From NCBI GenBank assembly GCA_000010565.1, contig AP009389.1, positions 1,302,001-1,366,000 on the forward strand: 64,000 nucleotides of DNA, given 5' to 3'. Position numbers and translations under genes: made by a program. The notes under the pieces were generated by a model. That model was not told the DNA's origin. It ran no database searches and was given only the letters and a program-made list of their open reading frames with translations. Position 1 is the first letter of the stretch; every line of letters starts with the position of its first letter. Below are positions 23,410 to 63,973 of the stretch, one piece after another. The stretch comes from Pelotomaculum thermopropionicum SI. GTDB lineage: Bacteria; Bacillota; Desulfotomaculia; Desulfotomaculales; Pelotomaculaceae.

Positions 23410-24300
23410 ATGCTGCCAGCACTGGAGGGTACCAGAGTTGCCGTCATCGGAGGAGATGCCAGGGAACTGGTTCTGGTTGAGGAACTGGTTAAGTCGGGGG
23501 CACAGGTAAATGTTGCCGGCCTTCCGGCAGGAGAGATAAAAGGGGTGTGCCATTTCAGCGCTGCCGGGGATTGTCTTGGTGGTATAAAAGCATTAATCCT
23601 CCCGGTTCCAGGCATTGACGAGAATGGCCGGGTTTACAGTGCTTTTGCGGAAAAGTCCCCGGTTCTTACCGATGAAGTGATGGCAGAGGTCCCGCCCGGA
23701 GCTCTTGTTTTTACAGGAGTGGCAAGGCCGCTGCTGAGCCGGATGGTTTCCCGGAGGGGGTTGCGTTTAATTGAACTGATGAAGCTTAACGAGGTGGCCA
23801 TTTTAAACTCAATCCCCTCTGCAGAAGGTGCAATTCAGATGGCAATGGAAATGCTGCCTGTAACCATTCACGGCATTACGGCTTATGTTTTGGGCTTCGG
23901 CCGCACCGGGATGACCCTGGCCCGCCTTCTTGGAGCAATGGGCGCCCGGACCAGGGTAGTTGCCAGAAAACCCGAGCACCTGGCCCGGATTTTCGAAATG
24001 AACCTTATTCCCGTGCCGCTTCAACACATGGCCGATTGCCTTGGTGAAGCGGAAGTTATTTTTAACACCATACCGGCACTGGTGTTAACCCGGGAAGTGC
24101 TAATGAAGCTTTCCCCCGGCACCGTTATTATCGATATTGCCTCGGCACCGGGTGGTACGGACTTCCGTGCGGCGGAAAGTCTGGGTATTAAAGCTTGCCT
24201 GGCACCGGGCCTTCCCGGCAAGGTGGCGCCAAAAACGGCCGGCCGTATTCTGGCCAGGGTTATTTCAAGGATTATTGCAGAGGAAACGGCAGGCGGTTAA
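23410..24300 (+). CDS. dpaA: Dipicolinate synthase subunit A
   Basis: Subunit A of dipicolinate synthase (SpoVFA) is the NAD(P)-dependent partner that oxidises the DapA-derived intermediate to dipicolinate in the mother cell. The 296 residues show an N-terminal region beginning GTRVAVIGGDARELVLVEEL. A Rossmann nucleotide site YVLGFGRTGMTLARLLGAMGA lies at about residues 158-178. It is followed 29 bases later by dpaB, as in all spoVF operons. Confidence 0.93.
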   Translation: MLPALEGTRVAVIGGDARELVLVEELVKSGAQVNVAGLPAGEIKGVCHFSAAGDCLGGIKALILPVPGIDENGRVYSAFAEKSPVLTDEVMAEVPPGALVFTGVARPLLSRMVSRRGLRLIELMKLNEVAILNSIPSAEGAIQMAMEMLPVTIHGITAYVLGFGRTGMTLARLLGAMGARTRVVARKPEHLARIFEMNLIPVPLQHMADCLGEAEVIFNTIPALVLTREVLMKLSPGTVIIDIASAPGGTDFRAAESLGIKACLAPGLPGKVAPKTAGRILARVISRIIAEETAGG

Positions 24301-41310: not shown

Positions 41311-42555
41311 ATGAAGGCAGAGTTAATTTTTACCGGCACGGAATTACTGCTCGGCCATATTTTAAACAGCCATGCCCAGTACTTAGGAATGCAACTGTCC
41401 GGAATGGGCATCGAAGTGGTCCTGCATACGACGGTTGGTGACGACCGGGAGAGGATGAGCCGGGCATTCAGGGAGGCAATAGAGCGCTCCGACCTGATCA
41501 TTATAACCGGCGGGCTGGGTCCAACCACCGACGATCTTACAATGGAAACAGTGGCAAGCGTGCTCGGCCTGCCGCTGGTACTTGATGAAAGGTCGCTGGC
41601 TGCAATTGAGGAGGTTTACCAAAGGCGCGGGCTGGCCTTAACGGAAGGTGCAAAAAAACAGGCTTATTTTCCTGAAGGCGCCGCTGTCCTGCCCAATACC
41701 AGGGGAACGGCCCCGGGCGCGCTTATCGAAAAAGATGGCAAAATAATATTGATCCTTCCTGGCCCCCCCCACGAGCTCACGGCAATGTTTGAGAACTCGG
41801 CTCTCCCCTTTCTTTCTGAAAAAGCGGGAAAGGGGGCGGTAATGAGGTACAAGGTTTTTAAACTGACCGGCATCACCGAGTCAATGGTGCAAGAAAAATT
41901 AAAAGATTTAGGCGGCCAGGGTAACCCGGAAATAGCATACATGGCCAAGCCGGGCGAGATCCAGGTGAGGATTCAGGCGCGGGCGGGGAATTCAGAACTG
42001 GCTCAAAAAATGGTGGATGAACTGGCAGACAAAATAAGGCCACGCCTGGAAGAATACATTTTCGGCTGCGGCGAGGAAACGCTGGAGGGCGTGGTAGGAA
42101 AGCTTCTTCTGGAAAAAAGACTTTCGCTAAGCGTGGCGGAATCATGCACGGGAGGCCTGATAGCGGCGAGGTTAACGGATATTCCCGGCAGCTCGGAGTA
42201 TTTCAAAGGAGGGGTGGTTGCTTACAGCAACGAAATGAAGAAGGAGATCCTGGGCGTGCCGCAGGATATCCTTGATCAGCACGGGGCCGTCAGCAGAGAA
42301 ACTGCCGTGGCCATGGCGGAGGGGATGCGCAGGATGGCCGGTTCCGACCTGAGTATTGGAGTTACGGGCATAGCCGGGCCCGGGGGAGGCACCGAAAAAA
42401 AGCCAAGAGGTCTTGTTTACATTTCCCTTTCCTATGCCGGCGGGGCGGTGTGTCATGAATACCTTTTTTCCGGAGAAAGGCGGTCGGTAAGGCAGTTTAC
42501 CGCAAATACAGCGATGAATATTTTAAGGCGTTATTTGTTGACCAAACCGGATTAG
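41311..42555 (+). CDS. cinA: CinA-like NMN amidohydrolase/ADP-ribose pyrophosphatase
   Basis: CinA proteins combine an N-terminal MoCF-like COG1058 domain with a C-terminal NMN deamidase domain for pyridine nucleotide recycling. The N-terminal part shows [11 protein letters not shown] and [15 protein letters not shown]. The C-terminal part shows [21 protein letters not shown] near residue 275 and [12 protein letters not shown]. The 414 residues match the full two-domain form. It lies just before recA, as in many Bacillota. Confidence 0.94.
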
Positions 42556-59814: not shown

Positions 59815-61215
59815 ATGGTGAACTGCAAAAAAATGAGCGGGAAATTAAATTCCCTTACCGATGTCTTAAAAAAAACATTGTTTTTTTTCGAGGCCCTTTC
59901 AGTATCCGAGTTGGCTCCCCATGTCCAGAGAAAGATGCTTAAGGACTATACCTTGCCGCAGGTGGAAGAAAAGATAAGGCTATGCCTCAGCCAAAACGGG
60001 TGCTTTTATAAAGAGAAGGACAACTGGCGCTTAAATCTGGAGGGAAATAAAGAAAACGACCAGTTTTATTCCCTTCTCCTTAAAAAAGGACAGCCCCTTA
60101 ACTTGCGCGAAGTTTTAAAAAATATGAACTCAAAGAAAAAAAAGGTCAAAAAACTTCTCTCCGAGGAGGCCAGCCTCATTTCGGACGGCAGGTTTATTCA
60201 ACTGGACAGCGGTTACTGGGGCCTTACTGAGTGGGAAGTTGAAACAAGCCATTACTCGCTTAAAAACCTGATTATTAAAGCCCTTAAAATGTACCCGGGC
60301 GGCCTTTCCGTCCAACAACTTCATCAACTGATTAATTCCTGGAGGAAAACCGATGTAAAAACGCTGGAAGGGGTTTTGAAAAAATTTCCTTACTTCGAAA
60401 TGGCAGGGGAGGGAGTATGGAGCTACAATCCTGCCGTAAGGGTTGCATATGAAGGTCTTCTGAAAAGGTTCATGGCGGTGATCAACAGGCAAAAGATCCG
60501 CTGGCACCGTGATAGAGCATGCTGGAAAAGCAAGATAGAGGCTTTGCAAAGAAATTTACAGGAAGCGGTAGCCGGTCAAAAGGAAGCTGCTGCCGCACTG
60601 GCCGAAAAAGTGGAGATGGCTGGCCAGCATGAATACCTGATGACCCAGATGGCAGAAAAGGACCTGCTTTTGGCTTTAAGAAAGAGGGAGATAATCAGAT
60701 ACAGGGAACACCTGAACAAGCTTGAGGCTAAGGCAAATAGCATTCTGTACCAGTGCCGCCTCTGGGTAAAGCGGGCAAGGGAAGCCCAGGAGGAAATAGC
60801 GCGGCTTAAAGATTTGCTGGGGAAGAACCAGGCAAGCCTGGAAAGTCTATTTACAAAACTGCAGCAATATAAGGAAAAAGACCGGGAAAACAAAGCCCGG
60901 CTGGCGGAGCTCAAAGAACAGCACAGCATAAAAGTGGCCGAACTGCAAAATGAAATTGTCGAGCTCAAACAAAAAATGGAGAGGGAAAGGGCTGCTGCTG
61001 CGCTGGAGGAAAGGCGTCTGAAAGAAGAAATAGGCGCGCTCACCAACGAGTTGAAAAAGGCCTTGAAGGTAGAAGAAGAACAGCAGCGCTCTTATCTTAT
61101 GGCCCAGCAAGAGCTGGCCGCTGCCAGAGAAGAGCTGAGGAGCCTGGAAAAGCAGCTAAAAAACCCTTTTATACGAATTGTATTAAAACTGCGTTCAATT
61201 TTTGGTAAAATATAA
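59815..61215 (+). CDS. Protein with tandem winged-helix domains and a long coiled coil
   Basis: The 466-residue product starts with what look like three winged-helix (HARE/RpoE-delta-like) units. These are at about residues 20-75 (ending NWRLNL), about 85-145 (ending GYWGLTEW) and about 155-210 (GGLSVQQLHQLI...GVWSYNP). A continuous coiled coil runs from about 220 to 445, and the end is a basic amphipathic helix (NPFIRIVLKLRSIFGKI). No catalytic domain is visible. The start is uncertain: ATG 59815 abuts AAGG, and ATG 59833 is an alternative. I propose a DNA- or polymerase-binding scaffold as inference. Confidence 0.65.
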   Translation: MVNCKKMSGKLNSLTDVLKKTLFFFEALSVSELAPHVQRKMLKDYTLPQVEEKIRLCLSQNGCFYKEKDNWRLNLEGNKENDQFYSLLLKKGQPLNLREVLKNMNSKKKKVKKLLSEEASLISDGRFIQLDSGYWGLTEWEVETSHYSLKNLIIKALKMYPGGLSVQQLHQLINSWRKTDVKTLEGVLKKFPYFEMAGEGVWSYNPAVRVAYEGLLKRFMAVINRQKIRWHRDRACWKSKIEALQRNLQEAVAGQKEAAAALAEKVEMAGQHEYLMTQMAEKDLLLALRKREIIRYREHLNKLEAKANSILYQCRLWVKRAREAQEEIARLKDLLGKNQASLESLFTKLQQYKEKDRENKARLAELKEQHSIKVAELQNEIVELKQKMERERAAAALEERRLKEEIGALTNELKKALKVEEEQQRSYLMAQQELAAAREELRSLEKQLKNPFIRIVLKLRSIFGKI

Positions 61216-61429: not shown

Positions 61430-61888
61430 TCAGGTGAACTGATAAACTGGTGTACGGAAATTTTGATTAGGGCCGGGAAGGCCGTTTACCCTGATAAATC
61501 CTGCTTCTGCCGGTTTAAACCCGGCCTGCCAGCAAAGCTTTTTAACCTGGATAGCAGGGCTGGCAAAATGGTCAGGGAGCATTGTAAAAGCCGGCTTGTG
61601 CTCATAATGATGCTTAAACTGAAAAACGCCCGGGGCAACTTCTAAAAACCCGGAATTATCCGGCCAATTTGAGGGCTTCTGCGGTGCCGGCTTTTTCTGC
61701 GGGCTTACTTCTTTTGACGATTCCCCCGGACTGCTTGAGCAAAGGTTCTCTGATTGCCCTGCTGCGGAATCCTGAGTGCCTACCGCCCGGAGCTCACCAG
61801 ATGTGCTTTTTTCTCCTTCATCGGGGGACGTTGCCGGTAATTCCCGGTCAGGTGGCTGCCGGTGAATAAAATAATTCCTGTAAGTCAC
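61430..61888 (-). CDS. Pro/Ser-rich protein of unknown function, possibly spore-associated
   Basis: On the minus strand a 152-residue frame starts at GTG 61888, with GGAGGTG nine bases upstream. The frame continues to 61939 but that part has no SD. The first ~90 residues are polar, rich in Pro, Ser, Glu and Lys. The second half has FLEVAPGVFQFKHHYEHKPAFTMLPDHF and a Gly/Pro-rich end. No family is known to me. The gene is divergent from a Cys-rich coat-like gene. GCATAGTATA just before its SD resembles a mother-cell -10, but the -35 is poor. Two small + strand frames here (61463, 61669) are treated as shadows. Confidence 0.5.
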   Translation of the reverse strand: MTYRNYFIHRQPPDRELPATSPDEGEKSTSGELRAVGTQDSAAGQSENLCSSSPGESSKEVSPQKKPAPQKPSNWPDNSGFLEVAPGVFQFKHHYEHKPAFTMLPDHFASPAIQVKKLCWQAGFKPAEAGFIRVNGLPGPNQNFRTPVYQFT

Positions 61889-62066
61889 TGCCAGTATCAC
61901 CTCCTGAAGTATACTATGCAAAGCCTGCCGGTTAAGCAATCGGGCCGAAAAAATTTTTTAGAAGACTTACACTAATTTATATAATTTAACATAATTTGTA
62001 TAATGAAACGGTAATAACAGAAAGAACTGCTGTTATTAGCCAGATACAAATTAAGGAGGTAAACTT

Positions 62067-62645
62067 ATGGAAACCGAAAGCATTGCCTTTCCGAGGTTTG
62101 AGACCGTTTGCATTGAAGTTCCGAAGGTATACGACTTCTGCTTCCAGGCAGAGCACCGGGAGAACATCTGCACCCCGCTGAATGATTGCAACCCTCCGGA
62201 AGGAGCTACGGTGCGCTGCACCATTGACAGCACCAACTGCGCCGAAGTGAGCAGGACCACACCTAACAACCAGGGGCGGGCCAACGTAACTTTTGCCGTA
62301 ACGGTTTATTACACCCTGGAAGTGCTTGACTGCAGCAGCAATGTCGTGTGTACCTTCGCGAACCAGAGCTTCAGCTTTACCAAAACAGTTGTTCTCTGCG
62401 CCCCCGAGGGAACTTTCACGAACTGTGAAATTGTTAATGCCGCCTGCGGTCCCTGTCTGATTCTCGGCAATCAAATTTGCTGCACATTCGATCTCTGTAT
62501 TACCATTCAGTCCTTGGCAATTGTCAAGCTGCTAGTGCCGAGCTTTGGCTTCTGCACACCGGCGCTGTGCGAACAGGTCTCCCCGATCGGTCCGTTTGTA
62601 TGTCCGCCGCAACTGTTCCCGCCTCAATGCCCGCCGGCCGAATAA
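62067..62645 (+). CDS. Cysteine-rich protein, candidate spore coat or surface-layer component
   Basis: The 192-residue product has 19 cysteines, often in pairs (CGPC, ICC), and beta-rich strands (ANVTFAVTVYYTLEVLDC). It has a hydrophobic segment near 150-160 and a Pro/Cys tail (PFVCPPQLFPPQCPPAE). No signal peptide is visible. The middle resembles the SPOCS (DUF3794-type) domain of spore coat and morphogenesis proteins, though I cannot confirm it. ATG follows TTAAGGAGGT, a strong SD. Function as a disulfide-linked coat protein is inference. Confidence 0.65.
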   Translation: METESIAFPRFETVCIEVPKVYDFCFQAEHRENICTPLNDCNPPEGATVRCTIDSTNCAEVSRTTPNNQGRANVTFAVTVYYTLEVLDCSSNVVCTFANQSFSFTKTVVLCAPEGTFTNCEIVNAACGPCLILGNQICCTFDLCITIQSLAIVKLLVPSFGFCTPALCEQVSPIGPFVCPPQLFPPQCPPAE

Positions 62646-62713: not shown

Positions 62714-62971
62714 ATGCTGTCTTCGATATGCTATAAGATAACCGGCCTGAACAAAATCAGAGCAGGCAAGTTAAAAGATGTTATAATGTCCGTTGACGGC
62801 GTAAAGGAAGTCAATTTTTCAGCAGGTGAAAGAATTGTTGTAACCTATGATATTATGAAGGTTGCCGCAAACAAGATAACTGCATGCATTAAATCGCTGG
62901 GATTAAAAGTGTACCCGGAGCAGTTCGCGGCAGGCGCCGGACTGGTTGAAAAAAATCCTCACAGCGGATGA
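62714..62971 (+). CDS. HMA-like fold small protein lacking the metal CxxC
   Basis: The 85-residue product has the beta-alpha-beta-beta-alpha-beta pattern of heavy-metal-associated domains: YKITGLNKIRAGKLKDVIMSVDGVKEVNFSAGERIVVTYD, then NKITACIKSLGLKV. The usual GMxCxxC loop is replaced by GLNKIRA, so metal binding is unlikely by the standard route. ATG follows GAGGAG. A terminator follows. Role unknown. Confidence 0.7.
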   Translation: MLSSICYKITGLNKIRAGKLKDVIMSVDGVKEVNFSAGERIVVTYDIMKVAANKITACIKSLGLKVYPEQFAAGAGLVEKNPHSG

Positions 62972-63331: not shown

Positions 63332-63349
63332 AAGAAAGGGGATGTGTTA

Positions 63350-63973
63350 ATGAGCACTAGAACCGCCCGTCTATTGCTAATGTTTGCTGCCTGCTTTTTG
63401 TTCATCATTGCCGCTGCGCCTGCGGCAGATGCCGCCACTCAGACGAACCCTTTGCAGTCATACTGGAACAGATACTATGGCGGCAAGGTGGTGAAACAGC
63501 GCGTAACAATACCTTCTCGTCCCGCGACTGTTCCTCCGCCTGTAAACCCGGTTCCTCCTGCGGACGCCGGCCAGCAGGATACTTCAAGGTTAAGCGTAGA
63601 TGAGAAGTTAATGTTCGACCTGGTCAACCAGGAAAGAGCAAAAAACGGCCTTGCAGGACTTGCGCTGGACATGCGCCTGGTGGAACTGGCCAGGCTGAAA
63701 AGCCAGGATATGTATCAAAACAGCTACTTCAGCCATACCTCTCCCACCTATGGCACTGCCTACGACATGGAGAGGAAGGCGGGCATAACGGCCAGGGTAA
63801 TGGGGGCGGAAAACATTGCCAAGGCTGCCACAACCCAGCGGGCACACGAACTTTTTATGAACAGTACAGGCCACAGGGCAAATATTTTAAATCCGCAGCA
63901 CGATACCATTGGCATTGGAATTTTTAAGACTCAAAACGGTGTGGTGGTAACTCAGTTGTTTACGGGCAATTAA
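63350..63973 (+). CDS. Secreted CAP/SCP-domain protein (YkwD-like)
   Basis: A signal peptide (residues 5-28, cut after AADA) is followed by a Pro-rich spacer and a CAP domain from about residue 85 to the end. Its hallmarks are MFDLVNQERAKNGLAGLALDMRLVELARLKSQDM, FSHTSPTYGTAYDM, GENIA and STGHRANILNPQHDTIGIG. Such YkwD-like proteins act at the cell surface or spore with unknown chemistry. ATG 63350 follows AAAGGGGATG; an in-frame GTG at 63344 is close by. Its c-di-AMP riboswitch ties it to wall or osmotic stress. Confidence 0.9.
   Translation: MSTRTARLLLMFAACFLFIIAAAPAADAATQTNPLQSYWNRYYGGKVVKQRVTIPSRPATVPPPVNPVPPADAGQQDTSRLSVDEKLMFDLVNQERAKNGLAGLALDMRLVELARLKSQDMYQNSYFSHTSPTYGTAYDMERKAGITARVMGAENIAKAATTQRAHELFMNSTGHRANILNPQHDTIGIGIFKTQNGVVVTQLFTGN

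Follow-up and report, generated by a model that had tools for sequence, protein, structure and literature searches.

What do two divergently transcribed genes near position 62,000 of the window encode, one a cysteine-rich protein and the other a proline- and serine-rich one, and do both products belong to the spore envelope? The window is the 64,000-base stretch analysed here, from the genome of Pelotomaculum thermopropionicum SI (a single contig of 3,025,375 bases). To our knowledge, little of the spore envelope has been mapped beyond the Bacillus and Clostridium models. The first-pass annotation, made from the letters alone, had taken the pair for likely surface or coat proteins and suggested that both could be undescribed components of the mother-cell coat. 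Its elementary statements hold: the first protein has 19 cysteines in 192 residues (9.9%) and a very strong Shine-Dalgarno sequence, the second is rich in proline and serine (about 12% and 9% in a 151-residue copy) and lies on the opposite strand, each gene has a good ribosome site, and neither N-terminus, judged by eye, looks like a signal peptide. The minus-strand open frame as given (61430-61939, 169 aa) is longer than the likely gene, for which the GTG codon at 61888 is the best start. We refer to the two genes as the coat gene and its partner; their features are collected in Table 1.

Table 1. Features of the divergent pair and its downstream neighbours, in window coordinates
Feature	Position	Strand	Description
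Partner gene	61430..61888	-	GTG start at 61888 behind AGGAGGTGA; 152-aa Pro/Ser-rich protein
Partner CATAGTATA element (-10-like)	61910..61918	-	GCATANNATA 26-31 bases before the start in 9/9 close copies
Coat-gene sigma-K-type promoter	61971..61993	+	-35 AC 61971-61972, 17 bases, -10 CATA 61990-61993; consensus elements from an excerpt of PMC3789822
Coat-gene Shine-Dalgarno AAGGAGGT	62053..62060	+	Strong ribosome site before ATG 62067
Coat gene	62067..62645	+	ATG start at 62067; 192-aa Cys-rich protein; related to BMQ_0737 spore-coat family
HMA-like protein gene	62714..62971	+	85 aa; sub-threshold HMA match; no CxxC; 68 bases 3' of coat gene
CAP-domain (YkwD-type) protein gene	63344..63973	+	Domain scan

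The Cys-rich protein has a recognizable relative. An NCBIfam scan at E <= 1 gave a single match, to NF052457 (BMQ_0737 family morphogenetic spore coat protein; 64.6 bits, E 1.3e-17), with residues 14-189 aligned to positions 1-194 of the 199 in the profile, that is, along the whole of it; a six-frame search with the same profile scored the protein at 63.0 bits. The scan score lies 6.4 bits below the curated cut-off of 71 bits, and by its sequence the protein is related to this family without being filed as a curated member. Pfam returned no match, and PHROGs matched neither this protein nor the partner. The first-pass annotation had proposed a comparison with SPOCS/DUF3794 (PF12673), and this assignment is ruled out by the absence of a Pfam match and by an hhalign probability of 0.6% against a 27-domain SPOCS profile. 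Homologues were found in 18 of 60 genomes by single-protein search (E <= 0.001, own genome counted) and in 31 of 113 genomes of the host's order by family-alignment search. Across the phylum, NF052457 matched 49 of 299 genomes at E <= 1e-4, just one of the 49 scoring above the cut-off, and it matched none of 14 control genomes. Searches with the window protein recovered no copies from the plasmid and phage collections, nor did a search of the plasmid collection with the coat protein of locus L049.

High cysteine content is a property of the family and sets it apart from its surroundings. The mean is 7.9% in coat homologues (n = 55) versus 1.2% in 432 other neighbouring open reading frames (ORFs) longer than 100 aa, just two of which reach 5%. 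In an alignment of 31 coat proteins, seven cysteines never vary (C15, C51, C58, C120, C127, C144 and C179), and five more (C25, C130, C139, C163 and C168) are conserved in 28-30 of the proteins. The gene is under purifying selection, with dN/dS of 0.07-0.19 in seven pairs (one with a dS of 2.6). An AlphaFold2 model (pLDDT 84.8) predicts an all-beta domain at about residues 13-158, made up of six long strands, followed by a Pro/Cys-rich tail (VCPPQLFPPQCPP) that is modelled with low confidence. Comparison of the model with solved structures gave a best E of 7.7e-3 (probability 0.30) in Foldseek and a best Z of 3.6 with VIA; because neither is a convincing fold match, the case for lattice formation is one of analogy. 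A PDB sequence search with the single protein listed three matches (best E 0.07). A PDB search with the family profile gave two leucine-rich-repeat matches over 34 positions (best E 0.0055), which we took to be chance.

The strongest evidence that the coat protein acts late in the mother cell is, on sequence grounds, the promoter signature of its gene. In the portion of PMC3789822 available to us, AC is given as the -35 mark of sigma-K and ATA as that of sigma-E, with mother-cell -10 boxes of the form CATATTAT or CATATAAT. The coat gene has a -35 AC and a CATA-type -10 element at sigma-K spacing, and the same arrangement, AC-N16/17-CATA, precedes 32 of 38 coat homologues (25 of 27 from the single-protein search and 7 of 11 from the phylum search with NF052457) and is absent from the other six. 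In a 31-homologue subset of these, 27 have the motif, 23 of them at a spacing of exactly 17; every other AC-CATA spacing from 10 to 23 was found 0-5 times, and shuffled upstream regions had the motif in 2.7 of 31 on average and in 8 at most. Being related to one another, these homologues do not count as independent cases. Across the named neighbourhoods, a set that overlaps with the 38 homologues, the motif precedes 44 of 54 coat genes (10 lack it) versus 23 of 346 other genes, and among loci not marked as overlapping it precedes 28 of 37 coat genes. This count dropped ORFs with fewer than 150 upstream bases, no Shine-Dalgarno-like stretch or a repeated upstream sequence. The genes around the coat gene mostly lack the motif: it precedes 1 of 24 CAP genes, 0 of 9 HMA-like genes and 0 of 10 SPOCS genes.

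A scan of the 42 window ORFs with a ribosome site found the motif at three: the coat gene, dpaA (dipicolinate synthase A, 23410-24300, +; AC-N17-CATA) and a start inside cinA. The last of these, at 41455 and within cinA, is a false positive. dpaA serves as a positive control for the sigma-K-like motif; it appears in the sigma-K regulon list of C. difficile in the same part of PMC3789822.

The gene for sigma-K itself appears to be split, at a site outside the window (G000:C1:1159500-1166000, L146). The TIGR02846 model matches two parts, scoring 181 and 168 bits and lying about 4.2 kb apart, each below the model's cut-off alone. The insert of 4,267 bases carries GTTTATGA, an 8-base repeat, at either end, and its flanks, once joined, form an open frame of 230 aa. 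Its cargo consists of a large serine recombinase, a TdeIII-type type II restriction enzyme and a DNA methyltransferase, so that it appears to be a skin-like element of very small size that encodes a restriction-modification system. A literature search gave, among the matches listed, no paper that names Pelotomaculum.

We compared the surroundings of the coat gene at 52 loci, 51 named ones and the window, grouping the neighbouring proteins by single-linkage clustering; some of the loci come from near relatives. The cluster that includes the window's CAP/YkwD protein occurs near the coat gene in 25 of the 52 neighbourhoods and a relative of the HMA-like protein downstream of it in 9, the window being included in both counts. 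SPOCS genes lie beside distant coat homologues in 5 of 52 (by profile, and by Pfam for one member scanned). The coat domain also occurs as the C-terminal part of larger proteins. It follows a YVTN beta-propeller in L017:526-2097 (E 1e-6) and L018:1453-3036 (E 1e-5), and a right-handed beta-helix in L090:260-1891 (E 6e-16) and, by a weak match, in L093:2263-4044 (E 9e-5). In such fusions the coat domain may act as a spore-surface anchor or lattice domain. Together with the family homology and the sigma-K-type signature, the SPOCS and CAP/YkwD neighbours give good support to the first-pass view of the Cys-rich protein as a mother-cell coat component.

Three further observations may be added. The window encodes, at 59815-61215 (+), a 466-aa protein with a weak HARE-HTH/RNA polymerase delta-like N-terminal match and a coiled-coil-like C-terminal part; in 8 of 52 neighbourhoods, window included, a protein of this type accompanies the coat locus. 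Two clusters, 8 and 14 (L094-L099, L105), are conserved opposite-strand neighbours of distant coat proteins, most of which are about 325 aa long; one scanned member of each gave no Pfam or NCBIfam match, and profile comparison showed no homology between cluster 14 and the partner. Finally, the protein encoded at G000:C1:83653-85673 contains three SPOCS domains and has an end that looks LysM-like by eye; it adjoins another SPOCS protein and, also by eye, a CAP-like reading frame.

The partner is a protein of a different character. It is mostly disordered by prediction, and its structural model is confident for one hairpin, at residues 80-90, with low confidence elsewhere. Two short motifs recur: a beta-hairpin motif, FLEVAPGVFQFK in the window copy (FxEVxPGVFxFK in the family), and TPVYQFT at the C-terminus (PVYxF in the family). 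In aligned partner copies, [FY]xx[VI]xxGx[FY]xF is found in 16 of 16, and P[VI][YF]xF near the C-terminus in 14 of 16. Distant copies share 15-31% similarity with the window copy, and dN/dS is 0.31-0.56 in six pairs (a seventh was saturated), again indicating purifying selection. The window copy matched nothing in Pfam, NCBIfam or PHROGs, and the copy at L065 contained no known domain in Pfam or NCBIfam. Using hhalign, we compared the partner cluster (cluster 5) with divergent-neighbour clusters of other genera and found them to be related, with probabilities of 96% with cluster 13 (over 16 columns) and 79% with cluster 41 (50 columns). Clusters 13 and 41 matched each other at 95% (60 columns), and an unrelated cluster scored below 1%.

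Wherever the partner was found, it is divergent from a coat gene. Homologues were found in 9 of 60 genomes (E <= 0.01, own genome counted), all nine divergent from the coat gene by their coordinates. A profile search of the host's order found the partner in 19 of 113 genomes, each of which also has a coat gene, and in all 19 the partner is divergent from a coat gene, with 364-683 bases between the matched parts. By counting alone, with phylogeny ignored, the probability of this co-occurrence is 8e-14. Because coat-gene neighbours had supplied the sequences for this profile, the informative part of this result is that no copy was found elsewhere genome-wide. In the host genome no second partner appeared at E <= 10, and in the phylum sample, with at most 20 candidates scored per genome, the window's own genome was the 1 of 299 with a partner. 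G001 and G011, both with a close coat gene, gave no partner match, nor did the ten genomes whose coat genes are distant; the partner is hence dispensable. The profile had one further match in the order: in G051, a weak partner-profile fragment containing a stop (C52:127771-127830, -; E 0.0035) lies upstream of the first of two coat genes and is perhaps a decayed second partner.

The partner promoter resembles that of the coat gene only in part. The GCATANNATA element conserved in the upstream regions of the close copies fits a mother-cell -10 box. An AC at sigma-K spacing before the CATA -10-like box is present in four of the nine, and the window copy, which has CATAGTATA and lacks an AC at N16/17, is not among them. 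The neighbourhood count gave the full sigma-K-type motif before 1 of 16 partner genes, an undercount, since the upstream slice cuts some elements. In clusters 13 and 41 the promoter-proximal sequence differs, with no GCATANNATA-type element. Because most partner promoters are not sigma-K-like, a coat role that is well supported for the coat gene is inferred for the partner. The first-pass proposal that the partner, too, is a coat protein thus keeps a plausible footing in its conserved linkage to the coat gene, but mostly without the full sigma-K signature.

Our best explanation, to which we assign a probability of roughly 0.7, is that 62067-62645 encodes a structural protein of the outer coat or exosporium that would form a disulfide-linked lattice, accompanied by a dedicated client or linker. 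Late in development, sigma-K RNA polymerase would transcribe the coat gene in the mother cell. The product would fold into one long-stranded beta domain and assemble as a layer on the forespore, where intermolecular disulfides through the conserved cysteines would lock it. In other genomes the domain, placed at the C-terminus, would serve again to anchor beta-propellers and beta-helices. The partner would be a small, mostly disordered client or linker, whose conserved FxEVxPGVFxFK hairpin and C-terminal PVYxF probably dock, through beta-strand addition, on the lattice protein or on a partner layer.

The more serious rival leaves the coat protein as described and makes the partner an assembly factor, inhibitor or regulator, restraining an aggregation-prone Cys-rich protein or timing its synthesis. 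We consider this possible, if on balance unlikely. In its favour, the partner stays close to the coat gene in 19 of 19 genomes, is mostly disordered by prediction, evolves faster than the coat gene and has a promoter unlike the one before that gene. On the other side, none of the domain scans, of the window copy or of the L065 copy, found a known domain in the partner, and a non-globular chain with short beta motifs seems more like a client or linker.

Two other readings question the genes themselves. One takes the Cys-rich protein not for a coat component but for a protein that binds metal or has a redox function, sharing a small operon with the downstream HMA-like gene; it is suggested by the 19 cysteines and by the HMA-like gene following in 9 of 52 neighbourhoods. 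We think this very improbable: the HMA-like protein lacks a CxxC metal site and scores below the HMA cut-off, a sigma-K-type promoter precedes the coat gene, the family that its product matches takes its name from a spore coat protein, and the propeller and beta-helix fusions and SPOCS neighbours fit a surface role. There is even less to recommend the idea that the minus-strand ORF arose by chance in the sequence upstream of the coat gene. It could draw on the low similarity of distant copies, the GTG start and the two close-coat genomes in which the partner is missing, but the dN/dS values, the [FY]xx[VI]xxGx[FY]xF motif in every aligned copy and the profile match between clusters 5 and 13, though it spans 16 columns only, argue against it. 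Homologues of both genes in the 60-genome search, with purifying selection on each, place the pair beyond chance.

Returning to the lattice protein and its client or linker, the coat protein adds a new branch to a kind already known, and what is new is the closely linked partner family. The first-pass suggestion that both proteins were undescribed thus stands for the partner, which is unnamed in Pfam, NCBIfam and PHROGs, but not wholly for the coat protein, because NCBI has a family model. Among titles and abstract openings in the open-licence literature, we found no description of the pair in the host's order. The locus provides a lattice-protein candidate for Pelotomaculum-type syntrophs, with a promoter signature that tells when the protein is made, and the pair offers a direct two-protein test of whether a Cys-rich spore layer binds an accessory protein. 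The coat-domain fusions, for their part, suggest a natural spore-display domain.

Among known systems, SPOCS/DUF3794 proteins (SipL, SafA-type) are of the same spore-envelope kind and adjoin distant coat homologues, but the coat domain has no sequence relation to them. CotY and ExsY of the B. cereus group are structural proteins of the exosporium basal layer (according to an excerpt of PMC9562818), Cys-rich and self-assembling (according to one of PMC7333573); unlike them, the window protein has no Pfam match and, at E <= 1, NF052457 as its sole NCBIfam match. The closest likeness in sequence is to BMQ_0737 of Bacillus megaterium QM B1551, with which the whole domain aligns and which shares the CI-x-x-x-KVYD start, LCAPEG and conserved cysteines. 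A BMQ_0737-GFP fusion was located in the outer layers of B. megaterium spores, as stated in the accessible text of PMC4656864. The BMQ_0737-type protein of L039, from the sole genome above the NF052457 cut-off, also has the promoter motif upstream, there as AC-N16-CATA, but at 238 aa and 14 cysteines it is longer and has fewer cysteines than the window protein. Unlike the BMQ_0737 family at large, the window coat gene has a divergent partner, found in the phylum sample in its own genome only, at the search depth given above. In gene arrangement, the best parallel is CsxA of Clostridium sporogenes, described in the excerpt of PMC7333573 as a Cys-rich, self-assembling exosporium protein of about 33 kDa whose gene has a highly conserved divergent ORF, retained even where other genes of the cluster are lost. 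The window pair likewise combines a Cys-rich protein, a presumed self-assembling layer and a divergent ORF, a likeness of description and gene arrangement only. As a tentative generalization, which we hold to be somewhat doubtful, the coat domain could be a general spore-surface lattice across Bacillota, used alone or as an anchor for propellers and beta-helices, to which one order adds a dedicated disordered clip docking through FxEVxPGVFxFK and PVYxF; the csxA-divergent ORF would then be the same arrangement in Clostridium.
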